DNA from: Sutterellaceae bacterium
GTDB lineage: Bacteria > Pseudomonadota > Gammaproteobacteria > Burkholderiales > Burkholderiaceae_F
DNA length: 11,437 nt
Assembly (NCBI GenBank): GCA_030531135.1
Contig: JAUNOJ010000036.1
Location: forward strand, 1-11,437
Reading direction: 5' to 3'
In this document: positions 7,300 to 11,437 of the stretch, piece by piece
Numbering within the stretch: position 1 is the stretch's first letter
How the letters are laid out: every line of letters begins with the position of its first letter
Made by a program: the position numbers and the translations under genes
Notes under the pieces: generated by a model
What the model saw: only the letters and a program-made list of their open reading frames with translations
Databases searched by the model: none
Told to the model about the DNA's origin: nothing

Positions 7300-8478
7300 A
7301 TGATCCAAAGACGCCGCTACATCGAGCAAATTCGCCCGTTTTTCGAATCCGACCTCGTGAAGCTCGTCACGGGCGTTCGTCATTGCGGCAAGCGTACGCT
7401 TTTGCGGCAAATCGAAGAAAATTTTCATCAACAAAACAAACCGACGTTGCGGTTGGATTTTGACGAACCTTCCACCGCCAACGCCATCGACTCGATTTCG
7501 ACACTCGAAGCAGTCGTTGACCAAGCGCTTTGTGCCGCCGACGGACAAAAGCTGTACGTCTTTCTCACCGAAGTTCAGAATCTCTCGGACTGGCATGTTG
7601 CCTGTCGTTCTCTGAGACTCAAAAACCTCTCGCTTTTCGTAACGAGCAGTACTTCGGTTGTGCTCACAAGAGAATTCACCCGGGAACTGAGCGGGCGCTA
7701 CGTTTCTTTTCGCCTACACCCCTTTGTATACAAAGAACTTTGTGCCGGCAATCGTACCTATCCCGTCACCGGCTATTTGATGCTCGGCGGTTTCCCTCAA
7801 GTTCTTGATTCGGAAAAGAAGACTGCTACGCCGGCCAAGCTCAAAGCGATCGAGAGCTCGATTATGGGCGACATCGTCCGTCGCTATCGCATTCGAAAGG
7901 ACGAGATTTTCCGACAGCTTGCGAACATCGTTTTGGCTTCCAATGCCCGGATTTTGAGTGCGAATGCCGTTTGCCATGCGCTCAAAGAAGAAGGGCACGA
8001 CGTCACAATCACCACCGTCTGCAAGTTTCTGGATTATCTCAAAGAGACCTATTTGATCGATGCGGTGCCGATTTTCGACACCAAAGCAAAGCGAGCGTTG
8101 AGCTACTACGAAAAGTTTTATGCCATCGATGCCGGGCTATCCACTATTCGTCAAATCAACAATCGCCCGAATTTGACACGCAACCTCGAAAACATCGTCT
8201 ATAACGAATTGCTCTACCGCGGCTACGCCCTACAGGTCTTTCGACACGACTCTCACACCATCGACTTTTTGGCCGTGAAAGCCGGCAAAGAATACTTGGT
8301 ACAGGTCGCCTACAGCATAGCGGAGCCTTGCACGTACGAGCGCGAGTTTGCACCGTTTCACAGGCTTGATAACAGTCGACTGAAGATCATTATTACGAAC
8401 GATGAGGCGGATTTCTCCACCTCAACGGTCAGGCACATTTGCCTGAAGAACTTTTTGCTGTCCGATGATCTTGAGTAA
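7300..8478 (+). CDS. COG1373/DUF4143 ATPase-like protein with degenerate Walker motifs
   Basis: This 392-residue protein has the layout of the COG1373 family: an N-terminal AAA-type domain (about 1-170), a winged-helix-like middle, and a C-terminal DUF4143 restriction-endonuclease-like domain (about 255-345). Recognisable blocks are TGVRHCGKRTLL, LYVFLTEVQNLSDW, LSGRYVSFRLHPFVYKEL, LGGFPQVL, KFYAIDAGL, ENIVYNELLYRGY and IDFLAVKAGKEYLVQVAY. Relative to the usual G-x4-G-K-[ST], the residue after Lys31 is Arg32, and the Walker B Asp is Thr90 (Glu91 remains). ATP hydrolysis is therefore doubtful. The family's cellular role is poorly known. No Shine-Dalgarno precedes the ATG at 7300, but the family's MI-x-R start fits. 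It converges on the YheT-like gene with a 24-bp gap. Confidence 0.85.
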   Translation: MIQRRRYIEQIRPFFESDLVKLVTGVRHCGKRTLLRQIEENFHQQNKPTLRLDFDEPSTANAIDSISTLEAVVDQALCAADGQKLYVFLTEVQNLSDWHVACRSLRLKNLSLFVTSSTSVVLTREFTRELSGRYVSFRLHPFVYKELCAGNRTYPVTGYLMLGGFPQVLDSEKKTATPAKLKAIESSIMGDIVRRYRIRKDEIFRQLANIVLASNARILSANAVCHALKEEGHDVTITTVCKFLDYLKETYLIDAVPIFDTKAKRALSYYEKFYAIDAGLSTIRQINNRPNLTRNLENIVYNELLYRGYALQVFRHDSHTIDFLAVKAGKEYLVQVAYSIAEPCTYEREFAPFHRLDNSRLKIIITNDEADFSTSTVRHICLKNFLLSDDLE

Positions 8479-9739: not shown

Positions 9740-10957
9740 ATGATCTATCTACGTCGAGATATTGAAAAGGCTTTCTTGCAAGCCTCCCGAGAGTACGCAG
9801 TCGTTCTTGTCACAGGCGCACCTCATGTCGGAAAAACGACCATGCTCAAAGCCTTGGCCGGGGCCGATCGCTCATATGTCACGTTTGACGATCTCTTTGA
9901 GCGCGACTTGGCACAACGCGATCCCGCCGGGTTCTTGCAAAGGTATCGGCCGCCGGTTTTGATCGACGAAGTCCAATATGCGCCGCAATTGTTTGCCTAC
10001 ATCAAACAGGCGGTCGATAAAGGCGCAACCCCCGGATCGTTTTGGCTCGCGGCCAGCCAAACCCTTTCGTCCATCGATGCCCTAAAGTCGATGGCAGGAC
10101 GCGTTGCCGTTTTGCGCATGAGTTCGCTTTCGCAACGAGAAATCGACGGGCACGATGACGATGCCGATTTTTGCCTTACGCTTGACGCTTGGCAAAGACG
10201 AGCACAAAACCGACAACCGAAGACACTGTCGGCAATCTTCTCTTGCATTTGGCGCGGCGCGTTGCCGCATGCGCTTAACCCGACAACGGATCGCGACGAC
10301 TTCTACAGCACCTACGTGTCCGATTTGATCACGCGTTGCGTCACTGCGCTTTTGCCCGGCATCGACCCCTGCCGATTCTTGCGCTTCATGATTGCCGCGG
10401 CTTCTCGCACGGCGCAGACCCTCAACCTCAAAGCCATGGCACGCGTAGCGGAAATGGACGAAGAAACCGCCAAGGTCTGGCTCAAAGCTTTGAAAGCGTT
10501 GGGGATCGTTTTCTTTGTCGATGCGCTCCGTCACCCATTACTCAAGCGCACTGTCAAAAAGCCCAAACTCTACTTCGAAGACACGGGGCTTGTCGCCTAC
10601 CTGACGCGCTACCCGACGCCTGAAATTCTCGAAGTCGGAGCACTGAACTGCGCCGTTTACGAAAACTTCGTCGTCACCGAAATCATGAAAAACATCCGCA
10701 ATCGAGGGTTGAACTTTGAGTTTTACTACTGGCGCGATTTCGACGGCAAAACCGTTGACCTGATTCTCGAAGTGGACGGACAACTCTTTCCGATTGTCAT
10801 CCGAAAGACAGACAAGCCCAAGCTTTTCGATGTCAGGCACTTCTCGGTACTGAAAAAAGCTCCATTGTCTGTCGGCTCCGGCGCCGTCATTTGCATGAGT
10901 CCGACGGTCGGTGCACTGAATACCGAGACCTTGGTGATCCCGACTTGGGCACTCTGA
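9740..10957 (+). CDS. COG1373/DUF4143 ATPase, second member, with altered nuclease-like motif
   Basis: This 405-residue protein belongs to the same broad family as the one at 7300 but to a different branch. The ATPase domain is intact: Walker A GAPHVGKT (26-33), Walker B VLIDE (73-77), then QYAPQLFAYIK and the FWLAASQ sensor region, where many relatives have TGS. The C-terminal DUF4143 part has LYFEDTGLVAYL (277-288), YENFVVTEIMK (307-317) and FYYWRDFDGKTVDLILE (328-344), followed by PIVIRKT (351-357). Most family members have PIEIKKT there, so the usual Glu and Lys of the PD-(D/E)xK core are Val353 and Arg355. Binding and hydrolysis of ATP are likely; nuclease activity is unlikely. Biological function is unknown. 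No SD is seen before the ATG. The upstream neighbour is divergent. Confidence 0.88.
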   Translation: MIYLRRDIEKAFLQASREYAVVLVTGAPHVGKTTMLKALAGADRSYVTFDDLFERDLAQRDPAGFLQRYRPPVLIDEVQYAPQLFAYIKQAVDKGATPGSFWLAASQTLSSIDALKSMAGRVAVLRMSSLSQREIDGHDDDADFCLTLDAWQRRAQNRQPKTLSAIFSCIWRGALPHALNPTTDRDDFYSTYVSDLITRCVTALLPGIDPCRFLRFMIAAASRTAQTLNLKAMARVAEMDEETAKVWLKALKALGIVFFVDALRHPLLKRTVKKPKLYFEDTGLVAYLTRYPTPEILEVGALNCAVYENFVVTEIMKNIRNRGLNFEFYYWRDFDGKTVDLILEVDGQLFPIVIRKTDKPKLFDVRHFSVLKKAPLSVGSGAVICMSPTVGALNTETLVIPTWAL

Positions 10958-10991
10958 CCGCCATTTTCTAGGCAGTATTCCCAGGGGGTAT

Positions 10992-11020
10992 TTGCACTTT
11001 TTCTTCGGCTCCGTTAAAGT
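10992..11020 (+). promoter_or_regulatory. Candidate sigma70 promoter of the aroG leader
   Basis: TTGCAC (10992-10997) and TAAAGT (11015-11020) are exactly 17 bases apart. Both boxes are imperfect, but the position suits a leader transcript starting near 11027, about 50 bases before the leader peptide. Confidence 0.4.
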
Positions 11021-11079
11021 GAAAGCCATTGACGCGAAACGTTTTGTCAGACGCGTCGAAATTTGGAAAACTTTTAGAC

Positions 11080-11154
11080 ATGCTTTACACCGCACGATTT
11101 TATTTTTACTCCTTTTTCTGCTCCAAGGCGGAAGGAGTACGCGTGCACGCTTAA
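11080..11154 (+). CDS. Phe/Tyr-rich leader peptide of the aroG attenuator
   Basis: A 24-codon frame starts with ATG at 11080 and stops with TAA at 11152. Residues 6-13 read RFYFYSFF; in all, seven of 24 residues are Phe or Tyr (Tyr3, Phe7, Tyr8, Phe9, Tyr10, Phe12, Phe13). Runs of regulatory codons like this mark leader peptides of attenuators such as pheL, where a ribosome stalls when the charged tRNA is scarce. The frame ends 22 bases before an intrinsic terminator, which lies ahead of the DAHP synthase gene. The SD is weak (GGAAA about 14 bases upstream). The product itself would have no function other than its translation. Confidence 0.75.
   Translation: MLYTARFYFYSFFCSKAEGVRVHA
11107..11139 (+). 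promoter_or_regulatory. Attenuator 1:2 pause hairpin
   Basis: TACTCCTT (11107-11114) and AAGGAGTA (11132-11139) are perfect 8-bp arms. The left arm lies on the codons for Tyr10, Ser11 and Phe12 of the leader peptide, so a ribosome stalled on Phe/Tyr codons would break this stem. That would free GGCGG (11127-11131) to pair with CCGCC (11179-11183), the left arm of the terminator. Confidence 0.6.
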
Positions 11155-11176
11155 AGCAAGCAAACCGAAGTACGAC

Positions 11177-11210
11177 AACCGCCAGGAAGCCTCGGCCCCG
11201 GCGGTTTTTT
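11177..11210 (+). terminator. Attenuator terminator ahead of aroG
   Basis: AACCGCC (11177-11183) pairs with GGCGGTT (11200-11206), with possible extra pairing inside the loop, and a run of six T ends at 11210. It lies between the leader peptide stop and the DAHP synthase start (65 bases downstream), where an ordinary terminator would silence the gene unless controlled. Confidence 0.8.
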
Positions 11211-11275
11211 GTTAGATAGCCTCGGTCGAACAGAGAGCGGTTTGAAAACTTTTTTGAAATATCGGGAGAACAACC

Positions 11276-11437
11276 ATGCGACACACCACCGACGACCTTC
11301 GAATTCAGGAGATTCGCGAACTTACGCCTCCGGCTCACTTGATCCGTGAATTCCCCTGCGAGGAAGTCGCTTCTCAAACCGTTCATCGTGCCCGCGAAGC
11401 CGCGCACGACATCCTGCACGGCAACGACGACAGAATG
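11276..11437 (+). CDS. aroG: DAHP synthase, class I AroFGH type (5' part only)
   Basis: 3-Deoxy-7-phosphoheptulonate synthase condenses phosphoenolpyruvate with erythrose 4-phosphate, the first step of the shikimate pathway. The 54 visible residues show the N-terminal block of the E. coli AroF/G/H type: TTDDLRIQEIRELTPPAHL, then an F-P-C segment, HRAREAAHDIL and HGNDDR. The catalytic (beta/alpha)8 barrel lies beyond the right edge. This N-terminal extension is the part that carries feedback-inhibitor contacts in AroG and AroF. GGGAG seven bases upstream supports the ATG. Which isozyme it is cannot be settled; the Phe/Tyr leader suggests a Phe- or Tyr-responsive one. Confidence 0.9.
   Translation, partial: MRHTTDDLRIQEIRELTPPAHLIREFPCEEVASQTVHRAREAAHDILHGNDDRM

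Follow-up and report, generated by a model that had tools for sequence, protein, structure and literature searches.

The DAHP synthase gene aroG at the end of the DNA analysed here is probably regulated by a ribosome-mediated transcription attenuator; judged from comparison of sequences and from predicted folds, this is by far the best explanation of the data, and we give it a probability of about 0.92. The window, as the whole stretch of 11,437 nt is called here, is an entire contig (G000:C246) and ends inside aroG. The sequence parts of such a device are present and conserved in relatives, and each of its alternative RNA states can be folded; from these observations we infer that the leader is translated, that ribosomes stall on it, that starvation provides the signal, and that both Phe and Tyr count, not only Phe.

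The leader frame and its alternative RNA folds

The features of the region, in order along the forward strand, are:

10992..11020, + strand, promoter-like pair TTGCAC (10992-10997) and TAAAGT (11015-11020) with a 17-nt spacer, recognised by conservation within the genus
11080..11154, + strand, putative leader ORF of 24 codons plus TAA, MLYTARFYFYSFFCSKAEGVRVHA, with ATG at 11080-11082 and stop TAA at 11152-11154
11082..11157, + strand, outer clamp, GCUUUA 11082-11087 with UAAAGC 11152-11157 and GCACG 11092-11096 with CGUGC 11142-11146, a single-sequence MFE prediction only
11098..11118, + strand, candidate regulatory codons F Y F Y S F F, at positions that are mostly aromatic across 38 frame-locked leaders
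11107..11122, + strand, segment 1 (UACUCCU 11107-11113 and UCUGCU 11117-11122), overlapping Tyr/Phe codons, from the fold and pair counts
11127..11139, + strand, segment 2 (GGCGGAAGGAGUA) with the GGCGG core at 11127-11131, from the fold and conservation
11177..11183, + strand, segment 3 (AACCGCC), partner of segment 2 (antiterminator) or of segment 4 (terminator), from the fold and conservation
11200..11210, + strand, segment 4, GGCGG and the U6 run (terminator), from the fold and conservation
11263..11268, + strand, CGGGAG, Shine-Dalgarno-like site of aroG, from the sequence
11276..11437, + strand, first 54 codons of the DAHP synthase gene aroG, with ATG at 11276, truncated by the contig end

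A preliminary description of this DNA had noticed a short frame with RFYFYSFF, which occupies residues 6-13 of the 24-codon leader, and an 8-bp hairpin with its left arm on the Phe/Tyr codons; the overlap is as described, but the stem is larger, since stem 1:2 in the fold of the window has 13 bp with a 3-nt bulge. The competing GGCGG/CCGCC pairing that it proposed is found as the antiterminator 2:3, in which GGCGG 11127-11131 pairs with CCGCC 11179-11183. Likewise, its U6 terminator before an AroFGH-type start corresponds to the pairing 3:4 of AACCGCC 11177-11183 with GGCGGUU 11200-11206, with a loop of 16 nt and a U run at 11205-11210 that ends 65 nt before the aroG start. A simple terminator scan of 10500-11437, which allows a loop of 8 against the actual 16 nt, returned 0 terminators.

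When folded without constraints, the RNA from 11080 to 11220 forms the leader hairpin and the terminator (–44.6 kcal/mol; z –2.80, with 1 of 200 shuffles as good); once segment 1 is taken away by folding from 11125 onwards, the GGCGG:CCGCC pairing forms, at a z of –0.79 that is not clearly better than shuffles. Partition functions of the window RNA ended just ahead of segment 4 give the same two states: with no ribosome, segment 2 is paired upstream with a probability of 0.97 and 2:3 has 0.00, and with segment 1 masked the 2:3 pairing reaches 0.998. In the full window RNA the terminator stands at 0.998. The device is of a classical kind, sharing with the amino-acid leader-peptide transcription attenuators of the trpL/pheL/hisL type a small frame that carries codons for the pathway products, an intrinsic terminator ahead of a biosynthetic gene (11177-11210) and mutually exclusive 1:2, 2:3 and 3:4 pairings, although the upstream pairing of segment 2 is weak in many relatives: in 15 of 41 family RNAs the prediction already favours 2:3 with no ribosome present, and among RNAs from outside the family only 19 of 58 have segment 2 paired upstream.

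In the mechanism that we propose, RNA polymerase would start upstream and copy the leader frame. With sufficient charged tRNA-Phe and tRNA-Tyr the ribosome would reach the stop codon, segment 2 would be masked or paired with segment 1, and segments 3 and 4 would form the terminator, transcription ending near 11210. If tRNA-Phe or tRNA-Tyr were uncharged, the ribosome would stall on the F/Y codons and cover segment 1, GGCGG in segment 2 would pair with CCGCC in segment 3, no terminator would form, and aroG would be transcribed. DAHP synthase would probably be made, then, mainly when Phe/Tyr are short. In 103 leaders the aromatic codons lie mostly 8-35 nt 5' of segment 2, a span within which a stalled ribosome, of the footprint size that we assume, would cover segment 1 and leave segment 2 free except at the nearest codons.

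The 54-aa fragment of AroG scores 53.6 bits with the AroG model and 34.5 bits with the AroFGH model, both below the whole-protein cut-offs; its identity is supported by relatives with long open frames, one of which has the Phe-regulated E. coli AroG as its PDB match. A PF00793 search of the window's own assembly did not find the remainder of the gene, and its match on contig C100 (an open frame of 295 aa) was set aside as presumably a KdsA-type relative, by its length. Upstream of the leader lies an AAA/DUF4143 ATPase gene with its stop at 10957. Nine same-genus upstream regions are long enough to be compared for the promoter-like pair; seven of them (L002, L004-L008, L010) have it in the form TTGCA[CT]-N17-TA[GA]AGT, and the other two (L003, L013) have looser forms at unchanged spacing; a sigma-70 consensus scan of 10500-11437 returned 0 promoters and no match at 10992-11020. 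Elsewhere in the window, two AAA_14 + DUF4143 ATPase genes lie on the same strand (7300-8478 and 9740-10957, both +) with an alpha/beta hydrolase gene on the opposite strand between them, and a TacA1-like antitoxin frame of 107 aa (109-432, +; Pfam 25.4 bits, cut-off 21) is found near the contig start.

Conservation, specificity for aroG and breadth

Among 67 same-family genomes searched, the 54-aa AroG query found 47 places in 42 genomes, one of which (L015, in G012), starting 37 nt from a contig end and with its leader likely at the end of another contig, was left out of the 46 places with upstream sequence. An aromatic-rich leader followed by the RNA triad GGC/UGG, CCGCC and GGCGG-U was found at 42 of these 46; it is absent at four, namely in G020, G021 and G022 (genus g4) and at one copy of G047. 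The comparison of regions upstream of aroG that the preliminary description had suggested thus reveals conserved leader codons and stems, by which its proposal of aroG attenuation is strongly supported. All 42 family leaders have the CCGCC + GGCGG-U terminator, with the U run broken after 3 in L012 and L022, and segment 2 reads GGCGG in 41 and GGUGG in one. Each leader holds 5 to 10 aromatic codons, with 7 in the window (F/Y block plus leader). Conservation suggests that the leader is translated; a Shine-Dalgarno-like 4-mer precedes its start in 4 of the first 29 family leaders (L002-L031), versus 27 of 29 for the aroG start.

In the alignment of these leaders (A1, 42 rows), segments 2 and 3 form standard pairs in 98.1% of cells versus 22-56% when slid. 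These pairs are nearly invariant, as expected of a segment that has to serve two partners, and the cores give no covariation because GGCGG/CCGCC hardly vary. For stem 1:2, 79.4% of pairs are standard versus 51-60% slid, with a covariation score of 0.284 against 0.231 in shuffled alignments (0/500), and for the terminator 3:4, 91.6% are standard (0/500). Both stems vary, and both exceed all 500 shuffles in percent paired and covariation score; these shuffles ignore relatedness, and for percent paired the slid controls lie well below. Pairs changed on both sides do not beat the slid controls, numbering 7 versus up to 10 in stem 1:2 and 3 versus up to 4 in the terminator, and 84/500 and 65/500 shuffles, respectively, are as high.

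The genes upstream of the attenuator differ, being the ATPase in the window and, in L016 and L017, frames whose ends we read as barrel-like; the attenuator therefore travels with aroG. A covariance model built from the 42 family leaders (R1) finds, in the window's own genome, one place, the leader itself. In the family it finds 46 places: the 42 of training, the leader at the contig end in G012, an orphan in G008 and two unrelated weak ones (G051 and G013:C13). At the sensitivity of this model, with its stricter filters, there is no sign in the family of pheA, tyrA or pheST under such an element. Among 120 genomes of the order, 33 have a match and 87 have none; all 22 non-training matches at E<=1e-5 lie directly 5' of aroG, and of the 33 at E<=0.01, 24 are upstream of aroG and 9 elsewhere, the best of the latter at 1.3e-4.

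The orphan (L324, G008:C90, 880-1007) keeps the terminator and GGCGG, with the leader MSYNVRFSLCILILPRRKG, in which F/Y are mostly gone. The AroG query has no match in this genome, which is 82% complete, so that absence of aroG is uncertain, and a PF00793 search finds one place there, a 288-aa open frame shorter than AroG. This leader appears to be one natural case of decay.

In a wider set we examined 204 aroG upstream regions, 201 of them distinct and four being repeats of family loci, drawn from named records (L048-L127), a class search (L128-L157) and an order search (L158-L267); they are best-scoring or partly chosen loci rather than a random draw, and 16 further loci in which the script recognised no AroG frame are uncounted. 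Scored by their densest short frame, 74 of these regions reach 5 or more F/Y/W within 9 codons on the sense strand, against 3 on the antisense strand; for 6 or more the figures are 61/204 and 0/204. In E. coli, the same scan detects pheL upstream of pheA (density 7) and gives 2 for aroG and 3 for aroF. In 68 of the 204 regions the aromatic density is 5 of 9 or higher and the terminator folds at –8 kcal/mol or lower; when the four family repeats are set aside, these are 64 of 200 (35/71 named, 2/27 class, 27/102 order); by this test 136 of the 200 regions outside the family have no leader. Segment 2 (GGCGG or GGUGG) is present in 61 of the 64 leaders, missing in two Devosia-labelled loci and L186, and the CCGCC..GGCGG-U terminator in 62. 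For the pairs that flank 2:3, covariation is clearly above shuffles at the first position only (31/60 vs 22.9).

The named genera with leaders include Burkholderia, Paraburkholderia, Caballeronia, Cupriavidus, Rugamonas, Massilia, Janthinobacterium and Oxalobacter, as well as Xanthomonas, Stenotrophomonas, Pseudoxanthomonas and Devosia; none was found at the aroG loci sampled from Serratia, Pantoea, Pectobacterium, Dickeya, Citrobacter, Buttiauxella and Erwinia. An order-mate (G408, L178) shares its leader peptide, residue for residue, with Burkholderia sp. Leaf177 (L057), which suggests that the order is Burkholderiales. Three Devosia-labelled loci (L074, L114, L118; Alphaproteobacteria) have an aromatic leader and a CCGCC..GGCGG terminator, with GGCGG as segment 2 only in L118, whose AroG groups on a long branch with that of Xanthomonadales, perhaps by transfer or as a mislabelled record. 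A divergent AroG form of the same order (FLSVHK for FLSVTK; L201, L203, L207, L219) is preceded by similarly built leaders, rich in F/Y/W or in F.

Amino acids probably read by the leader and the type of the enzyme

The preliminary description held that both Phe and Tyr codons are read. Codons were compared in 38 frame-locked family leaders, 4 of 42 being dropped with their core in another frame. The counts are F 26, Y 12 and other 0 at codon –4; F 24, Y 10 and other 4 at –7; F 19, Y 14, W 2 and other 3 at –8; and F 18, Y 14, W 1 and other 5 at –9. F and Y thus interchange at codons –9 to –6 and –4, with Y in 10-14 of the 38 at each, over fixed RNA segments. These counts speak against an attenuator that senses only Phe, with Tyr codons tolerated because TAY, like TTY, keeps the strand rich in U; such a device, unlikely in our judgement, would fit codon –3, the aromatic codon nearest segment 2, which is F in 36 of 38, and the same-genus AroG proteins with a readable residue 211, which all have the Ser of the Phe type (9/9; the window's gene is cut before this residue). 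In C. glutamicum, moreover, the Phe-Tyr-Phe leader aroR of aroF responds to Phe, Tyr supply being without effect, according to PMC11802643.

The type of the enzyme bears on the same question. Residue 211 is Ser in E. coli AroG and Gly in the same column of AroF, and we take this column to be that of Ser219 in yeast Aro3. At the position matching Ser219, Ser goes with sensitivity to Phe and Gly with sensitivity to Tyr, as stated in PMC10349828. In genus g14, five genomes have two aroG copies each. The leaders of the Gly (Tyr-type) copies contain F2 Y6 (G043, G046) or F2 Y5 (G044, G045), none being found at the Gly copy of G047, and those of the Ser (Phe-type) copies F5 Y0 (G043, G046), F5 Y2 (G044, G045) or F5 Y3 (G047), so that the leader is Tyr-rich on 4 of 5 Gly copies and Phe-rich on 5 of 5 Ser copies. 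The g14 Gly genes are split between two separate clades of the protein tree, one of them starred jointly with its Ser partners; this implies two switches or else gene conversion. Tyr-rich leaders on Tyr-type enzymes in both clades argue against sensing of Phe only.

Across distinct leaders, the mean F/(F+Y) is 0.70 in the Ser class (83 leaders), 0.27 in the Gly class (2, from one genus), 0.41 in the Ala class (8, each of them with W) and 0.79 in the divergent form (4). In the wide set a leader is present at 56/168 Ser, 8/14 Ala, 4/5 unassigned and 0/17 Gly genes; because of the last figure, the link between Gly and Tyr-rich leaders is confined to g14. This match of enzyme type, in one genus, supports the reading of Tyr codons, and together with the F/Y interchange it lends support to the earlier proposal: Tyr would count beside Phe, and the two would plausibly be read jointly.

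An action in trans of the leader peptide, or of the short RNA made on attenuation, is very improbable, and so is stalling of the ribosome by the nascent chain rather than through tRNA charging. Other attenuators are known to have trans-acting leader products, and the peptide ends are partly alike (LAER, AEG). One RNA core, however, encodes LAE, KAV, RRD or GGR depending on the leader, and it begins at codon position 3 in 91 of 103 leaders but elsewhere in 12, so that RNA rather than peptide is conserved; F and Y also swap. Even less credible is a hairpin that terminates the upstream gene or is unregulated, the F/Y-rich frame being due to chance: it starts 220 nt past the ATPase stop, and the predicted fold of the full RNA contains this terminator whether or not the leader is included, but this reading is opposed by the excess of dense aromatic frames on the sense strand, by the adjacency to aroG in many genomes behind different upstream frames, and by G008, where no AroG match accompanies a leftover leader devoid of most F/Y codons.

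Known systems and significance

The nearest precedent for the attenuator proposed here is C. glutamicum, in which aroR (Phe-Tyr-Phe) precedes the DAHP synthase gene aroF and ribosome stalling raises transcription, as described in PMC11802643 and PMC4046766. Compared by description, both systems place a Phe/Tyr leader before a DAHP synthase gene, but C. glutamicum belongs to a distant phylum, and the family leaders have 5 to 10 aromatic codons, with Tyr-rich or Trp-containing versions. The opinion that the codon mix is unusual is weakened by aroR and by the 41 of 68 leaders of the wider set in which F, Y and W are all present. In E. coli, pheL-pheA resembles the present case in its Phe-rich leader before an aromatic gene, but it controls chorismate mutase/prephenate dehydratase rather than DAHP synthase and its leader has F and no Y; the scan found no such leader within 450 nt of aroG or aroF. 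A single leader reads more than one amino acid of a shared pathway also in thrL and ilvL, which differ from the aroG leader in belonging to another pathway. A gene of a Vibrio vulnificus operon is, by its nomenclature, presumably a Tyr-type DAHP synthase. A predicted attenuator ahead of this gene is listed in Table 7 of PMC1173090 (from Merino's database), in a position similar to ours but with tyrA in the operon. The DAHP synthase genes of E. coli are known for the protein repressors TyrR and TrpR (PMC11802643).

No Rfam leader family or T-box matches the window at the gathering score, and at E<=5 the region 10960-11290 returns only SNORA51 and L31-Firmicutes, far below their cut-offs; a literature search, mostly of open papers, found no recognised report of an aroG attenuator in these bacteria. 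What is new is the breadth of the aroG attenuator, its absence from Rfam and its match to the enzyme type. A wider proposal, for and against which we see even odds, is that of a broad aroG-specific class in Burkholderiales, Xanthomonadales and Devosia that would sense F and Y, often with W, jointly, its codon mix being retuned with the allosteric site of the enzyme (Phe-rich leaders on Ser-type, Phe-inhibited copies and Tyr-rich leaders on Gly-type, Tyr-inhibited ones), so that after duplication each gene copy would answer to one amino acid in both its transcription and its enzyme activity.

DAHP synthase sets the entry of carbon into all aromatic synthesis, and its control seems to lie with a leader RNA in many Burkholderiales and in Xanthomonadales. 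If leader codons and inhibitor site really co-evolve, the text of the RNA would become a predictor of the feedback inhibitor of the enzyme.
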